From assembly GCF_000993805.1 (NCBI RefSeq), contig NZ_CP009961.1, forward strand, positions 458,001 to 522,000: a stretch of 64,000 bases of DNA, read 5' to 3'. Made by a program: the position numbers and the translations under genes. A model generated the notes under the pieces. That model worked only from the letters and a program-made list of their open reading frames with translations. It was not told the DNA's origin and ran no database searches. Origin of the DNA: Thermofilum uzonense (GTDB lineage Archaea > Thermoproteota > Thermoprotei > Thermofilales > Thermofilaceae). This document shows positions 4,498 to 64,000 of this stretch, in pieces (position 1 is the first letter of the stretch; every line of letters starts with the position of its first letter).

Positions 4498-4506
4498 GTG
4501 TCATGT

Positions 4507-5307
4507 ATGAGTCTTGCTAGATGTGTAATAGCAGCTATACGTCCTCGGGGATGGAGGGCTTACCTATGGATGTGGCTGCTGGGAGTCCTGCATGGGAGGG
4601 TGGATGCCCAGGCCTTGCTCCTAGGCTTCTACATGGTTGCCTCATTTCTAGCAACGGCCTTTGCGGTCAACAACTTTTATGATGTTCAAGGCGACTCGCT
4701 TAACAACTCTAAGGGTAATCCCTTTACACGAGGCTGTGGGAGCGGAGCCGTCAAGGTAGTTATACTGAACCAGTTTATAGCCGCACTGGTCGCTCTAGCC
4801 TACCCGAGAGTTTTCCCGATATACCTGGTCATGGTTATCCTGGGAGTTCTTTATAGTGCTCCTCCGATAAGGCTCAAGGGAAAAGCCGGCCTGGACGTGC
4901 TGTCTCACTCGTTATATTTTGGCCTCTTACTCTTCTTAACTGGCATCTTTATTAGTGGAGCTACTATAACCCATAACGTATTGGTTGCTGGGACCACTAC
5001 TTCTCTCTACTCTGCCTTCCTGCAACTGCGCAACCTTGAAAAGGATAAAGAATACGATGGACTGGCAGGGGACAATACCCTCTCCGTTAGGTATCCAAGT
5101 CTATCCAAGTTTCTCCTCTACCTGACAGGAGTTGCCTCAAGCCTCGGAGCTCTTCTGGCTTTTATGCATGATGCGACCCTTACGCTGGTCCTTTTAGCGG
5201 CTTCAACGTTACTCGGTACTCTTCTTAGTTGGGAAAGAGGAATAGACCTCTTAGTCGTAACGGGTCTCAGTCTACCTGTCCTGGTGTCCATATGCGCGTG
5301 CTACTAG
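4507..5307 (+). CDS. UbiA-family prenyltransferase
   Basis: Integral membrane enzyme that transfers an isoprenoid chain to an aromatic, glycerol-phosphate or other acceptor. The first Asp-rich motif is NNFYDVQGDSLNN (N-x3-D-x3-D form) and the second is LRNLEKDKEYDGLAGD; both bind the Mg-diphosphate of the donor. Seven to nine hydrophobic helices fill 266 residues, normal for UbiA. I prefer the ATG at 4507, with GGTG six bases upstream, over the GTG at 4498. It follows the regulator gene by about 9 bp and overlaps the glycosyltransferase by 16 bp. Archaeal members include the digeranylgeranylglyceryl-phosphate and quinone synthases; the acceptor here is not determined. Confidence 0.82.
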   Translation: MSLARCVIAAIRPRGWRAYLWMWLLGVLHGRVDAQALLLGFYMVASFLATAFAVNNFYDVQGDSLNNSKGNPFTRGCGSGAVKVVILNQFIAALVALAYPRVFPIYLVMVILGVLYSAPPIRLKGKAGLDVLSHSLYFGLLLFLTGIFISGATITHNVLVAGTTTSLYSAFLQLRNLEKDKEYDGLAGDNTLSVRYPSLSKFLLYLTGVASSLGALLAFMHDATLTLVLLAASTLLGTLLSWERGIDLLVVTGLSLPVLVSICACY

Positions 5308-9587: not shown

Positions 9588-9762
9588 ATAGCATTTCTAA
9601 ATTGAAATGATTAATTCTTTAGTCATGGAAAGCTGAATATAATACAATAAGACACAGACCCTACAGTATACTCTTCAATTTTACTAGAATTCCTATCTTT
9701 TTCAACAAGGATACTTTTCAACGGAAGTATAGATGAGTAACTCCTCTTACTTCTATTCAAGT

Positions 9763-11193
9763 TTAAACAAGGGGAGTTACAGCACTCAAGATCAATCCTA
9801 ATACAAGAGATATCCATACAACATTGACCCACGGCGAGCCTCCTTTGTATACCCAGACCGTGGCAGCAGACTCGATGGGAAGGAGTAGTATGAGGCTCAT
9901 AAAAGTCACTATTAAGAGGTACCCAGCAAAACCAGCAGGCATTATGGCTGAAACCACGAGCCACGCGGCTAGAAACCCTAGAGATCTTGTAATGAATGAT
10001 TTAGCTATGGAACCTAGGAGGCTAGCGCCTATGAGTTGAGGTCTTCCCAGCATTTCAAATAGGAATACCGTGGGGGTTATGATTACGAGCATTGATAGGA
10101 AGAGCCATACCCGGCTTATGCTGGGGGACACGTTCATGAAAGGCTGTAGTGTCTCGTATAAAATGAGGTATATTACGAGTCCCATTAGTAGTCCCTTTGA
10201 AACGTATTGGAGTTCTAGACTCCTAACCGTGGTAATGATGATCTCCCGGTATGGCTTGACTGCGACTAGCGACCCTAGTGCTTGAAGTAGGAGCACGGAG
10301 AGTATATATGCAGCTATGGGCGCTGAGGTAACTTTTGCAAACAAAATATACGTTAGTGGGGCCAAGGATGCAGCTAGAGTGGCAGCTAGAACGACTTTTC
10401 TCGTTTCACCCTTAGGTCTAGGGGCTATGGATGAACCAGTCAGGTAGAGGGGGAGAATCGATAAGAGCACAAGGAGTGTGAAGCTTCTTGCGAGAGTCAC
10501 AGCAAGCCTTAGACCAGACATGTTAACATTCTCGTAGGGGGTTAAATAGTCCAGGATTGCCTGAATTGCCCTTGGAGAGTATAGGACTGATAAATGGTCT
10601 TCGCAAGGAAGGATTACAATCCTCCATCCGATCAAACTCGACGAGTTTAAGCTCGAAGGATTAAATATCTCGTCAAGCTTTGCCAGAACTAGTAGGGAGC
10701 GCACGGGTGACGGGTTCAGCCGTGGCTGCGATGCTACTACAATGAGGTTTTTAACCGGGAACCCCTCCTGGACTAGGAGCTGCACGGCGGCACCACCCAT
10801 GCTGTGCCCTACTAGCGTAATGTTGGCTTGAGTCAAATTCAATGCTTCTATGAGAGCCTTGTAGTCACCTGTAATCACGCTTGTATTATAGCTTAGTTTC
10901 CCAGAACTTTTACCGTGACCACGGGTGTCGTAGGCTACTGCAAGGAAACCGTTTCTCGCAAGTTCCACGGCGATCCAGCCCATCATCTCAGAACTCCCCC
11001 CGAAGCCATGAAACAAGAACACGACCGTCCTAGGCGAAGCCAGGTCTTTATTATACCATATTTTATACCTTAGTATAGAGCCGTTAGATGCCAAGTAACC
11101 CTCCTGGGACGTTATGTTTGAATCCAAATTGATTATTGCAAGTGTTAATGCAAGGTACAAGCTCACTAACACGAGTAAAAGGATTAGTCTCAT
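9763..11193 (-). CDS. Alpha/beta hydrolase fused to a polytopic membrane domain
   Basis: The protein has 476 residues. An N-terminal signal-anchor helix (about 5-22) leads into an alpha/beta hydrolase domain at about 35-230, with oxyanion motif HGFGG, AYDTRGHGKSSG, nucleophile elbow GHSMGG, and a late EDHLS histidine. The C-terminal half (about 235-476) has about seven hydrophobic helices and no recognised family. The anchor suggests the hydrolase faces outside. A lipid or ester substrate near the membrane is plausible, unproven. It starts 17 bp downstream of the convergently unrelated 11.2 kb region and has its own TATA-like TTATATAAT upstream. Confidence 0.75.
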   Translation of the reverse strand: MRLILLLVLVSLYLALTLAIINLDSNITSQEGYLASNGSILRYKIWYNKDLASPRTVVFLFHGFGGSSEMMGWIAVELARNGFLAVAYDTRGHGKSSGKLSYNTSVITGDYKALIEALNLTQANITLVGHSMGGAAVQLLVQEGFPVKNLIVVASQPRLNPSPVRSLLVLAKLDEIFNPSSLNSSSLIGWRIVILPCEDHLSVLYSPRAIQAILDYLTPYENVNMSGLRLAVTLARSFTLLVLLSILPLYLTGSSIAPRPKGETRKVVLAATLAASLAPLTYILFAKVTSAPIAAYILSVLLLQALGSLVAVKPYREIIITTVRSLELQYVSKGLLMGLVIYLILYETLQPFMNVSPSISRVWLFLSMLVIITPTVFLFEMLGRPQLIGASLLGSIAKSFITRSLGFLAAWLVVSAIMPAGFAGYLLIVTFMSLILLLPIESAATVWVYKGGSPWVNVVWISLVLGLILSAVTPLV

Positions 11194-59052: not shown

Positions 59053-60510
59053 CTACCTAATACTTGACTTAACCCTGCTGAACGAGAATATCGCCGCTGA
59101 GAGGTTGACTATCCCGAGGATGCGGAACGTCTCTCCTATGGCTAAGGCCAACGACCTACGTCCACTGTCCAGGGTTGCCTGGTCTAGCTCGGCTGATATC
59201 AGGAGTTTCGTTATAAGGCTATATGATAGCCTGCTAGACAGGAGCAGGACCGAGATGTTTAGGCTCAGCGTGAGGCCCAGGTTGAATAAGACATTCCTGA
59301 GTGCTGAGGCTATCCCCCTCCTGTGCTCGGGGACGGAGGACATTATCGCGCTGTTGTTGGGCGAGATGAAGAGGCCGTTCCCAGCTCCTAGGAGTGCAGA
59401 TCCAAGCGCGAAGACATGGTAAGGCGTAGACAGGGTGAGGCCGGAGAGTATGAACAGCGCGGCACTTCCTATGAGTAGGCCTGCAATGGAGAAGTACACG
59501 TATCCGTACTTGTCCGAGAGCTTCCCGCTCAACAGGCTGAAGACGAGGAAGGAAAGCTCGTAGGGAAGAATGAGTAGACCGGTGCCAGCCGCGGAGACGC
59601 CCTTCCCGACCTCAAAGTACAGCGTGAATAAGAGCATCACGGAGCCGAAGGCTATAGCGTTGAGGAACTGTGCTATGACCCCGCCCGTAAAGCCCCATAC
59701 CCGGAAGAGCCTAAGGTCTAGCAGGGGGTGCCTTGATCTTAGCTCCCACAACCCGAAGACTACTAGTGAGACTAGAGACGAGGACAACAAGATGTTCACT
59801 ATCCTCCTATACGACAAGCCGTATGCCTCGAAGGTTAGCGCCAACAGGATAGACACCATGAAGGCCGTGAAAGCTAGGAAGCCTGGCCAGTCCATCTTCT
59901 TGGCCTCGACAGGCCTGTACGTCTCCCTTAGAGCCTTTAACCCCCACCAGGATGCTAGAAGGCCCACGGGGACGTTTATCCAAAAGATATACCTCCAGTC
60001 CAAGAGTCCTATGATGAGTCCTCCAAGCGTCAAGCCAAGGAGCGAGCCCATCCTGAAGGCCAGAGCGTTTATGCTCAATGCAAAGGCGAGAGGGCCCCCC
60101 GCAGCGGCATCCGTAACAATTGCCGCGCTAACAGTCCCCAGTATACCTCCCCCAAGCCCTTGAAGGAAACGTGTAGAGATAAGCATCTCCGGGGAGGTCG
60201 ATGTCCCGGCTAGAAGGGACCCGATCGTGAAGACCAGGAATCCCGCGACGTAGAGCTTTACCCGGCCGTAGAGGTCTGCTAGACGACCCACGAGCAGCAG
60301 CATCAACGTGCTCCCTAGCATGTATGCCTGGGTGAACCATAGTGCCTGCTCTATGTCAGCGTGGAGCGCCTTAGCCACAGCGTCTAAGCCCACCACTACT
60401 ATGCGTGTGTCTAGCCCGGCCATGAATGCGCCTATAGTAGTTACGGAGAGCACTGTCCAAAGGTACTTCCTATCAACAGCTCCGGGCTTGCGTGTCTGTA
60501 CTGCCTCCAT
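59053..60510 (-). CDS. DHA2-family MFS multidrug exporter
   Basis: A 485-residue carrier with about 14 helices, as in EmrB/QacA. Motif A is GRLADLYGRVKLY; the helix 1 region GAFMAGLDTRIVVVGLDAVAKALHAD has the DHA2 Asp; RFLQGLGGGILGTVSAAIV fits motif C-like helix 5. A TATA-like ACTTTATACA at 60541-60550 lies about 30 bp upstream. It is the last GC-normal gene before the AT-rich block. Confidence 0.86.
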   Translation of the reverse strand: MEAVQTRKPGAVDRKYLWTVLSVTTIGAFMAGLDTRIVVVGLDAVAKALHADIEQALWFTQAYMLGSTLMLLLVGRLADLYGRVKLYVAGFLVFTIGSLLAGTSTSPEMLISTRFLQGLGGGILGTVSAAIVTDAAAGGPLAFALSINALAFRMGSLLGLTLGGLIIGLLDWRYIFWINVPVGLLASWWGLKALRETYRPVEAKKMDWPGFLAFTAFMVSILLALTFEAYGLSYRRIVNILLSSSLVSLVVFGLWELRSRHPLLDLRLFRVWGFTGGVIAQFLNAIAFGSVMLLFTLYFEVGKGVSAAGTGLLILPYELSFLVFSLLSGKLSDKYGYVYFSIAGLLIGSAALFILSGLTLSTPYHVFALGSALLGAGNGLFISPNNSAIMSSVPEHRRGIASALRNVLFNLGLTLSLNISVLLLSSRLSYSLITKLLISAELDQATLDSGRRSLALAIGETFRILGIVNLSAAIFSFSRVKSSIR

Positions 60511-60596
60511 TAAGGTCGTTTTCCCGCTATGCCGGCAGACTGTATAAAGTTTATTATATATAGTTAAAATAAAAATTGTTGTGTCTTAAAGAAACT

Positions 60597-60683
60597 ATGG
60601 AGGAGCCTCAGACCCCTCCGGCTACCAACATATATGCTATACTCCTCTGTTCCCAGACCCGTAGCCGTTACGAGTTAAACTAG
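60597..60683 (+). other. Short frame at the composition junction
   Basis: A 28-codon frame (start MEEPQTPPATNIYAILLCSQ) lies immediately left of the AT-rich block. It has a A/T-rich stretch about 28 bp upstream. It could be the 5' end of a gene truncated by whatever joined the two compositions, or chance. The GC-rich hairpin GGAGG...CCTCC is within it. Confidence 0.2.
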
Positions 60684-60711
60684 GGTACAACGCTTTTCTG
60701 TAAAGAAGAGA

Positions 60712-62022
60712 TTATAATTTTGAAAAGGAAGACTGAAAGATAGATTGTAAAAGTAATTTTCTATCAACTATTTCATCGCTTTTTCTACCAAGAATTGCCA
60801 AATATCCTTCTTTCTGGGCTAAGGCATCTAGTAAATCACAAGATAATATTCCGATTACATCTTTAACATAAACCAATTTTCCCTCATACAATCCATATCC
60901 TAAATATCTTGAAGGTATTGCCTCTAATTTTTTTTCAAAATCCTCTAAAAACATTCCTTCTTTTTGAGCAAGCTTTCTAACATAATCTTTATCGATTATT
61001 TTTAATTTTCTCCCTTCGGGAATAGCAACAACCCTTCTTCTCCAGTAAGAAATTGTATAAGGAGTAAGTAAAGTCTCTTCAGGATTTTCAATTTCTATTG
61101 TTTTATTCTCCACATTTTCTTTATATTTTTCTATAACATATTCAGGAATATTTTCTGAATCAATCTTTATGTTATATAAAATTTCTCTAATTTCTTTTTC
61201 GTCGAATTTTCTCTTTTCTATTCCTGAAAGATAAATTTGAGCTTCATAAAGAAATTTTCTTAAAAATCTTGGTAAGTATGGCCAAGATTTTTCCAAGTAT
61301 TTTGAAAGTAAGGGGGCTGCTAAACCAAATTCTAATGTACTAATTGCGGCTGAAGTTGGAGACCTTAAAAAATAGTACAAAGAAATAGCGTTATTCAAAT
61401 ACTTTCTAGTTCTCTCGCTCGAAATTTTAGAAGAAATGTATCTTAAAGATTGATAAGGAATGGGAAAGGAAAGCAAGTAAAGTAAAGGAGCTAATGGATT
61501 TTGAGTAGCAAGATAAAGTTCTAATGAAGTTAAAGCATAAAAAAGATAAATTAATTTTCTGCTTTCTTTCCAAATTTTTTCTTGATATGCTTTTTCAATT
61601 TTTTTCCATTCTTCTGGGATTAATCCATATTTCTCGTAAATTTCATTCTTTTCTTTAATTAGCTTTCTCCTTTCAAATGGGTTTTTAGGCAATGGTTCAT
61701 TTAAAATTTCAATTTCTTTTTCGGAAATTCCCCTCCTTTTAAAAACTTCTTGAATTAGTATGGGGAATGGAGGAAGATTTCTTTCCACCAAATCTTCCTC
61801 TTCTTTATTTAAAGAAAGAAAAATTGGATTTAAGTTGGAAGAAATCAATCCATATTTCAATTTTTCTTCTTCTGAAGGAAGGGAATTATATGCCTTTAGT
61901 GCGCTTAAACCTTCAATCGTTTGTTTGAATAATGGATGATTAGAATATAGTATTGCAAAAGAAAACCTATCTTCTTCTGAAAATTTTTGCCAAGAGTTTA
62001 ATAAAGCTTCAGTGTCACTCAT
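60712..62022 (-). CDS. Unknown protein of the AT-rich block
   Basis: A 436-residue protein I do not recognise. It is rich in Lys, Glu, Ile and Leu. Residues of about 1-140 are highly charged helices. One or two hydrophobic hairpins lie at about 155-190 (KLIYLFYALTSLELYLATQNPLAPLLYLLSF, seen in part as LIYLFYALTSLELYL), and a C-terminal region contains YTISYWRRRVVAIPEGRKL and YGLYEGKLVYVKDVIG. It may be membrane-associated. The start has GTGAT seven bases upstream. No homologue is named. Confidence 0.7.
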   Translation of the reverse strand: MSDTEALLNSWQKFSEEDRFSFAILYSNHPLFKQTIEGLSALKAYNSLPSEEEKLKYGLISSNLNPIFLSLNKEEEDLVERNLPPFPILIQEVFKRRGISEKEIEILNEPLPKNPFERRKLIKEKNEIYEKYGLIPEEWKKIEKAYQEKIWKESRKLIYLFYALTSLELYLATQNPLAPLLYLLSFPIPYQSLRYISSKISSERTRKYLNNAISLYYFLRSPTSAAISTLEFGLAAPLLSKYLEKSWPYLPRFLRKFLYEAQIYLSGIEKRKFDEKEIREILYNIKIDSENIPEYVIEKYKENVENKTIEIENPEETLLTPYTISYWRRRVVAIPEGRKLKIIDKDYVRKLAQKEGMFLEDFEKKLEAIPSRYLGYGLYEGKLVYVKDVIGILSCDLLDALAQKEGYLAILGRKSDEIVDRKLLLQSIFQSSFSKL

Positions 62023-62045
62023 TTTATCACTAATAGATAGTAAAA

Positions 62046-62057
62046 AAATTTTAAATC
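62046..62057. promoter_or_regulatory. Shared A/T promoter of the divergent AT-rich genes
   Basis: AATTTTAAATCC reads as a TTTAAA box on both strands, about 25-27 bp from each start codon (62022 and 62080). The spacing is typical of archaea and argues that both genes are archaeal. Confidence 0.45.
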
Positions 62058-62079
62058 CTTTTTTCTTTTAATTAAAGAT

Positions 62080-64000
62080 ATGAAAGTGAAAAGTTATTTT
62101 AAAGAGCTTTTTAAAGAACATTTACCTAGAAAAGAATTGAGGGAAGAATTAGGGTTAACAACAAATTTTATACAAGAAGAAAATAAAATTGGGAAAAATT
62201 TAGCTGGAGATTTATTGGTAACTTTGCCTTGGATTGTTGGGGGAGCTTTAACAGTAATAGGAGCTGCTTTTGCTTATGATTATTTTATTAGAGATAAAGA
62301 AGCACCAGAAATTGAAAGTTTAAAATATAAAGATAGGGTTTTTAAAAGAGAAAATCAAGAATTTTTTGCTTGTGTAAAAGAGAAAAATCCTGAAAAATAT
62401 GCTATTTTAAATTTAAACAATACAAAAATTGAAATTCCTTTTGATGAAAAAGATTCTTGTTATAAAATTTCTTTTGATCCTAGTAAATATTGGTCTAAAG
62501 AGGGAATTGTTAAAGGAGAATTGATTGTTCCTGATAAATATAACAATATAAGTAAGGAAAATGTTAGCTTTTTTGTTAATTTGGAAAGTCCAAAAATTGA
62601 AGGTTTAGACATTAATAGAAAAGATGTTGGAATTTATGAAATTTCTGGTTTGATAAAAGATGATAATTTAGAAAATGCTTTTCTTTTGATTGATAATAAT
62701 AGAATTGATTTGAATAAGAATGGGAATAATTTTTATTCTGAAATTAAAACTCTGAAAGATCTTGAATTTAAGCTTTGTGCTTTTGATAAATTTAATTTAA
62801 GCTCTTGTGTTAATGGGAAAATTGAATTTAGTCAAGATAATCCAAATGTTTATTATGCTTTGAATAAGGGGTTAAATCAAAGTTATATTGATTTAATTAA
62901 ACCTTTGGATAATGATGGAAAACAAGATTTGAATGAAAGGGAATTTGTTGATTTATTGTCAGAATACCAGAAGTTTTTAGTAATTCCAACTTATTTGAAT
63001 TATTTAAGAAATCAAACCTCTGATGGAATTATAAGCAATGAAGAATTGAATTATTCAAAGAATTTTTCTTCTCTTGTTGAGAGGTTGTATGAAAATGTAT
63101 TAAAAGGGAAAATTGATGAGTTGAAAGTTAAAGCAAATAATGCTCCAGATAAATGGGAAGCTGAAGAGATATTAAAAAAAGCTAGAATTTTGGAAGAAAT
63201 TTTAAATAAAAGAATTGTTGATAATTCAACAATTAATGTTCTTGATTATTCTTCTTCTCTTGGATTAAAATTAAATTTTGATAGAGAATTAGCTAGTAAT
63301 GCTACTGCTAAAGTTTTAGGTTATTATGGGATTGCTGTTGTTGAGAGAAAATTGCCTGAAGAATTTGATGCAATAAGTTTATTGACAAAAGCAACTCAAG
63401 ATAAAATTTATGGGGAAAATATTGTTGATTTTGAGCCAATTGTTATAAATGATGCTGCCAATAGAACAATTTTAATTGGGAGTTTAGATATAGGAAGAGA
63501 TACATGGATGCTTGCTCATTTGCTTAAAGAAAGACCTTATTTAGTTGAGCAGCCAAAAAAATATGAATGGATTAATAGAATGATCCAAGAAGTTGCTTAT
63601 GATATTTTTGATGATGAATATTCCCTTAATTCAAGATGGATTGAACCACACAGCGGAAAAGAACATTTACCAGAGAATGTTACTCCAACTAATAAGGAAG
63701 TTTGGGAAGTAATTTTAGGATTTCATGATTATATGGATAAATTGCCTGAAAAACTTAAGAAAGATAATTTGCCAATAGTTTTTCCTTATTATGATTCTGA
63801 TTTATTGAAAAGTCAAATTAATGATAAAGTTGGTAGAACTATTGCTTTGTTTTTATTAGCTAAATTGCCAAATGCAACTTATGATTGGAGTAGAGAAGAG
63901 ATTGTTCCTGGAATGGAAGGAATAAGAGTTTTTCTTAAACAATTGCCATGGATATATGAAGAAATGAAAAATGCGTGGAAAGATCCAAACTCTGAAGGAT
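62080..64000 (+). CDS. Large membrane-anchored protein, partial at right edge
   Basis: A reading frame of at least 640 codons, open to the window end. The short basic N-terminus is followed by a transmembrane helix at about 45-70 (LVTLPWIVGGALTVIGAAFA). The remainder appears extracytoplasmic: four cysteines in the first 250 residues (98, 127, 233, 243), Ig-like beta segments, and an EF-hand-like LDNDGKQDLNE at about 276-286. The later part is helical. This layout recalls large surface proteins of small symbiotic archaea, but the identity is not established. It is missing its C-terminus here. Confidence 0.7.
   Translation, partial: MKVKSYFKELFKEHLPRKELREELGLTTNFIQEENKIGKNLAGDLLVTLPWIVGGALTVIGAAFAYDYFIRDKEAPEIESLKYKDRVFKRENQEFFACVKEKNPEKYAILNLNNTKIEIPFDEKDSCYKISFDPSKYWSKEGIVKGELIVPDKYNNISKENVSFFVNLESPKIEGLDINRKDVGIYEISGLIKDDNLENAFLLIDNNRIDLNKNGNNFYSEIKTLKDLEFKLCAFDKFNLSSCVNGKIEFSQDNPNVYYALNKGLNQSYIDLIKPLDNDGKQDLNEREFVDLLSEYQKFLVIPTYLNYLRNQTSDGIISNEELNYSKNFSSLVERLYENVLKGKIDELKVKANNAPDKWEAEEILKKARILEEILNKRIVDNSTINVLDYSSSLGLKLNFDRELASNATAKVLGYYGIAVVERKLPEEFDAISLLTKATQDKIYGENIVDFEPIVINDAANRTILIGSLDIGRDTWMLAHLLKERPYLVEQPKKYEWINRMIQEVAYDIFDDEYSLNSRWIEPHSGKEHLPENVTPTNKEVWEVILGFHDYMDKLPEKLKKDNLPIVFPYYDSDLLKSQINDKVGRTIALFLLAKLPNATYDWSREEIVPGMEGIRVFLKQLPWIYEEMKNAWKDPNSEG

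Follow-up and report, generated by a model that had tools for sequence, protein, structure and literature searches.

The stretch of DNA analysed here, called the window, comprises 64,000 bases (458,001–522,000) of the closed 1,611,988-bp chromosome of Thermofilum uzonense. An AT-rich island of approximately 4.3 kb lies at its right end, three quarters of it inside the window. The island and its borders contain the following features, those past position 64,000 being given in extended, genome or contig (L002) coordinates:

60690–60712: left junction, where host intergenic DNA passes into AT-rich DNA
60712–62022, minus strand: 436-aa open reading frame (ORF), 29% GC, GC3 0.19, with its 3' end at the junction
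62023–62079: divergent spacer of 57 bp with a palindrome-like A/T core
62080–64000, plus strand: gene of an 823-aa membrane-anchored surface protein, whose stop codon ends at extended position 64,551
extended ~64,565–65,020 (L002 ~4,565–5,020), minus strand, outside the window: remnant of a Cys-rich ORF, convergent with the 823-aa gene
extended ~65,000–65,030 (genome ~523,000–523,030), minus strand, outside the window: right junction, inside the host vapC gene
L002 ~5,010–5,115, minus strand: vapC remnant, of which the first ~30 codons remain, followed by island DNA
L002 5102–5344, minus strand, outside the window: vapB (PF04014), an orphan antitoxin gene beside the truncated vapC

Measured in 500-base steps, the GC content is 0.57 at 60,000–60,499 and 0.23–0.31 from 60,750 to 64,000. 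The host DNA has a mean of 0.495 (sd 0.029, minimum 0.431; 1-kb windows over positions 1–60,000). The drop from about 54 to about 28% GC proposed in an earlier, sequence-only reading is real and falls near 60,690–60,712, but the host level is nearer 50%, the local left flank of the island being at 55–57%. A two-breakpoint likelihood fit delimited a segment of 4.45 kb with 29.4% GC inside versus 53.0% outside (log-likelihood gain 433). An AT-rich stretch (60,541–60,600) upstream of a gene for an MFS protein is absorbed by the fit, which for that reason gives 60,543 as the left edge; since positions 60,601–60,700 are again at ~50% GC, the true edge lies at ~60,690–60,712. The borders are sharp on both sides; for the left one this had been described. 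Outside the island, no 2-kb window below 33% GC occurs in the 120 kb examined. The AT-rich codon choice ascribed to both genes was likewise confirmed, with GC3 values of 0.19 for the 436-aa gene and 0.16 for the 823-aa gene against 0.66–0.89 in three neighbours. The stretch thus combines foreign composition and codon usage with discrete borders, as horizontally acquired islands do.

The protein encoded by the 823-aa gene has one strongly hydrophobic segment (residues ~45–67), followed by beta-rich Ig-like strands (~75–250) and by a helical region and a conserved C-terminal domain (~380–823); the C-terminal part is confidently modelled by AlphaFold. The 436-aa ORF has a single credible homologue, a weak match to a broken fragment in genome G102, and its 3' end may have been cut at the junction. 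The near-palindromic A/T core of the spacer between the two genes (AAATTTTAAAT, read by eye) might act as a TATA region common to a pair of leaderless transcripts.

Both genes had been described as unrecognised, and they remain so: neither the two proteins nor the alignment produced a significant match in Pfam, NCBIfam, PHROGs, PADLOC or PDB sequences, and no PADLOC model of a known defence protein was matched. Fold searches with two AlphaFold models returned nothing at E below 0.001. The best of the weak fold matches of the 823-aa protein are Ig-type adhesin modules, and it resembles bacterial and archaeal adhesins with Ig-like stalks in having an N-terminal anchor followed by Ig-like strands; it differs from them in its conserved C-terminal domain, for which neither structure nor sequence comparisons gave anything significant. 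Transglutaminase-like folds are frequent among the low-ranking matches of the C-terminal model (E-values of 0.8 and above), part of the domain being weakly and non-significantly alike in fold to that superfamily. A transglutaminase-like protease was considered and rejected, as the catalytic Cys-His-Asp was not found. The position equated with the expected catalytic Cys is occupied by a conserved Glu (E717), and consequently no enzymatic activity is claimed for the domain.

The viral, phage and plasmid collections, as far as searched, contain no match to the two genes or to other branches of the family, and comparison of the 205 host CRISPR spacers with the island and its relatives gave only chance matches of 15–19 bases. 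The host carries a pair of CRISPR arrays, from L003 position 13140 to the start of L004 (genome ~551,140–559,822) and at L004 11862–16300 (genome ~569,862–574,300). Their 25-base repeat cores are identical but oppositely oriented; the arrays comprise 137 and 71 repeats, and their distances from the island are 28 and 47 kb. At L002 8784–10166, a 460-aa protein begins with a sequence resembling, by eye, CARF-type CRISPR-associated proteins.

When a sample of 398 Thermoproteota genomes was searched with a profile, 23 proved to contain the 823-aa family; Candidatus Brockarchaeota QC4_43 and Thermoproteota AUK152 are among the named records. The last ~400 residues are common to the family, with D654-R655, G659, E717, G733, P735, G797 and D801 among the well-conserved positions. 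The N-terminal parts vary, being Ig-like in T. uzonense and built of TSP3 repeats (PF18884) in G018, while the G020 protein has a long N-terminal extension ahead of the hydrophobic segment. The family gene is decayed in some genomes: in G005, another Thermofilum, it is split into two open frames within an AT-rich stretch (L015 8984–10989) and is perhaps a pseudogene, and in G262 a decayed copy contains internal stops (L074 9825–10979).

Twelve of the 22 copies, a count that leaves out a ferredoxin-like match near one of them (G157b), stand tail-to-tail with a Cys-rich gene on the opposite strand, the stop-to-stop distance ranging from −27 to +25 nt. Most of these convergent Cys-rich proteins end in a sequence of the YLCDPPGW type followed by a hydrophobic tail. 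The 436-aa gene is outside this conserved pair. The complete Cys-rich homologue in G381 opens with a signal-peptide-like sequence; the T. uzonense remnant is in mid-frame at the right junction, without a start codon or signal peptide. The partner is thus cut at its start, and the cassette in T. uzonense is therefore probably no longer complete. Cys-rich frames were also seen in other positions, namely 4 kb from the split family gene of G005 (at 4499–4873) and in the window itself (9626–10000, minus strand; 10 Cys in 60 residues).

The gene tree pairs the T. uzonense copy with that of G241 (100/99), although the exact sister is uncertain, some branches being long and the G241 sequence partial. 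Both belong to a larger group (100/100) that also contains Brockarchaeota G128 and AUK152. The tree places the remaining two Thermofilum copies, those of G004 and G005, in two other groups, and copies from the family to which G128 belongs (f20) occur in more than one group. The gene phylogeny thus conflicts with that of the hosts, and this scattered placement indicates repeated transfer.

The sequence-only reading had suggested, as one source of the island, a low-GC archaeon such as a DPANN ectosymbiont, which would here have been attached to Thermofilum. The 28% GC of the T. uzonense gene is the lowest of all family copies and lies below the 36–40% of its Thermoproteota relatives within the clade, which speaks for such a source. 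However, the nearest relatives found, including Brockarchaeota and AUK152, belong to Thermoproteota, the phylum whose genomes the profile search covered, and two contig scans over species of all archaea, which reach close relatives only, returned Thermoproteota alone. The DPANN origin is thus unsupported, though not refuted; none of the results requires it, and we consider it quite improbable.

The family gene is lower in GC than its flanks in 15 of 20 loci, with a median difference of −0.035, and the deficit reaches 10 points or more in all hosts whose flanks exceed 50% GC. AT-richness may therefore be in part a property of the family or of its carriers, and the low GC of the T. uzonense copy may also partly reflect a low-GC source. 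The same pattern could be expected of a resident surface-protein gene kept AT-rich by selection rather than acquired by transfer. Against this stand the tree, in which each of the three Thermofilum copies falls in a different clade, the absence of any match, or the presence of only a weak one, in four of the seven genomes of the genus examined, and the right junction, where reading frames are interrupted on either side; a resident gene is accordingly quite improbable.

Several copies of the family elsewhere are linked to mobility genes. The sole PF00589 integrase of genome G128 is situated ~50 bp upstream of its copy. Among the copies in G074, one has immediately upstream of it a weak integrase match that falls short of the Pfam cut-off, and another is 7 kb from the single PF00589 gene that passes this cut-off. 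PF00589 integrases also occur within 7 kb of the copy in G241 and within 3 kb of that in G157. Four integrases were seen in the neighbourhoods examined, where we estimate that ~0.8 would be expected by chance (Poisson P ~0.008, calculated by hand from per-genome counts with the neighbourhoods treated as independent). HerA-like ATPases, which have distant terminase-like PHROG matches, are found near the copies in G128 and G256, and Cdc6-like ATPases near those in G241 and G074. These neighbourhoods support, without proving, the carriage of the family on integrative elements. The association concerns a minority of copies; most copies outside T. uzonense lack an integrase in the region inspected. 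In the Brockarchaeota locus at L062 6731–17367, which is possibly an integrative element, the convergent pair is accompanied by an integrase, a ThiF-like gene and a HerA-like ATPase that has a terminase-like PHROG match.

At the right junction, the island interrupts a host toxin gene. The vapC remnant matches its homologues over ~30 residues (VVDTSVLIERIIRNSPFKSLVEDLFERANG...) and then enters island sequence; in the relatives G014, G012, G004 and G027, the vapBC homologues are intact, with a vapC of roughly 145–155 aa. The missing part of vapC was not found by tblastn in the window and the adjoining 60 kb (120 kb in total), which implies that the insertion was accompanied by loss or rearrangement of host DNA. 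The flanks of the island are rearranged, and not syntenic, in the other genomes of the genus compared for an empty site.

It had been suggested that the remainder of the element is located beyond the window and that direct repeats or an integrase might be found on the right side. The first is true, but only ~1 kb remains there and it contains no integrase; clear repeats and an integrase were both looked for on that side and neither was found. No direct repeat longer than 9 bp is common to the two junctions, the one shared 9-mer being about what chance would give. No tRNA gene was found at the borders, no integrase or replication gene within the island, no transposase match in the two ORFs and no Rfam family in the 20 kb from position 60,001. 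The only PF00589 gene of the T. uzonense genome is 344 kb away. The island thus has neither an integrase or transposase of its own nor attachment repeats or a tRNA target, as an intact mobile element would.

A complete small autonomous element, such as a virus or transposon, would be consistent with the compact size, the putative divergent promoter and the sharp ends on both sides. This explanation is very unlikely, given that no replication, integration or capsid gene was recognised, that terminal repeats are absent and that at least one gene is truncated at an end. Least probable of all is a chimeric assembly, or the joining of contaminating DNA to the chromosome: taken alone, the sharp composition change would fit the chimeric join once proposed, but the T. 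uzonense 1807-2 genome is a closed circular chromosome from a pure isolate, assembled from MiSeq pairs and 2.4-kb mate pairs and validated by read mapping that revealed only three problem regions, resolved by Sanger sequencing, whose positions the paper does not give (PMC4673724), and host DNA surrounds both borders, one of which cuts a host gene, with GC returning to the host level on the far side.

The low-GC stretch is of foreign origin, as its composition and codon bias, the host vapC truncated at one junction, the patchy distribution of the family and the gene tree show; of the two origins first considered for it, the foreign island is the one that holds. Like known archaeal genomic islands and remnants of integrated elements, it has a sharply foreign composition, carries unrecognised genes and disrupts a resident toxin–antitoxin gene. 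It differs from them in having no integrase, tRNA target or attachment repeats, and its ends look like products of illegitimate recombination. Our preferred explanation, which we regard as probable, is that T. uzonense acquired a foreign fragment of ~4.3 kb by illegitimate recombination, and that this fragment is probably the remnant of a mobile element carrying a surface cassette. The fragment is most likely derived from an integrative element. It would have entered with loss of host DNA, interrupting vapC.

The core of the acquired fragment would be the conserved tail-to-tail gene pair. The first gene is predicted to encode a protein anchored in the membrane by a single N-terminal segment, with a stalk that varies (Ig-like in T. 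uzonense, made of TSP3 repeats or helices in relatives) and an outward-facing, conserved C-terminal domain; the second would encode a secreted Cys-rich protein. Because an anchor, a variable stalk and a conserved tip are combined with a secreted Cys-rich partner, we infer a role at the cell surface, where the two proteins would act together, for example when cells that carry such elements recognise, attach to or exclude one another.

The acquisition of such an island is in itself nothing unusual. The convergent pair is conserved from Thermofilum to Brockarchaeota and is described in none of the family libraries searched. We tentatively suggest, as a possibility that falls well short of a probable conclusion, that it may constitute an undescribed mobile surface system of Thermoproteota, carried on integrative elements and serving in recognition, exclusion or competition between archaeal cells. 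If so, it would provide a handle on how archaea recognise and compete with their neighbours, an area that is poorly known.
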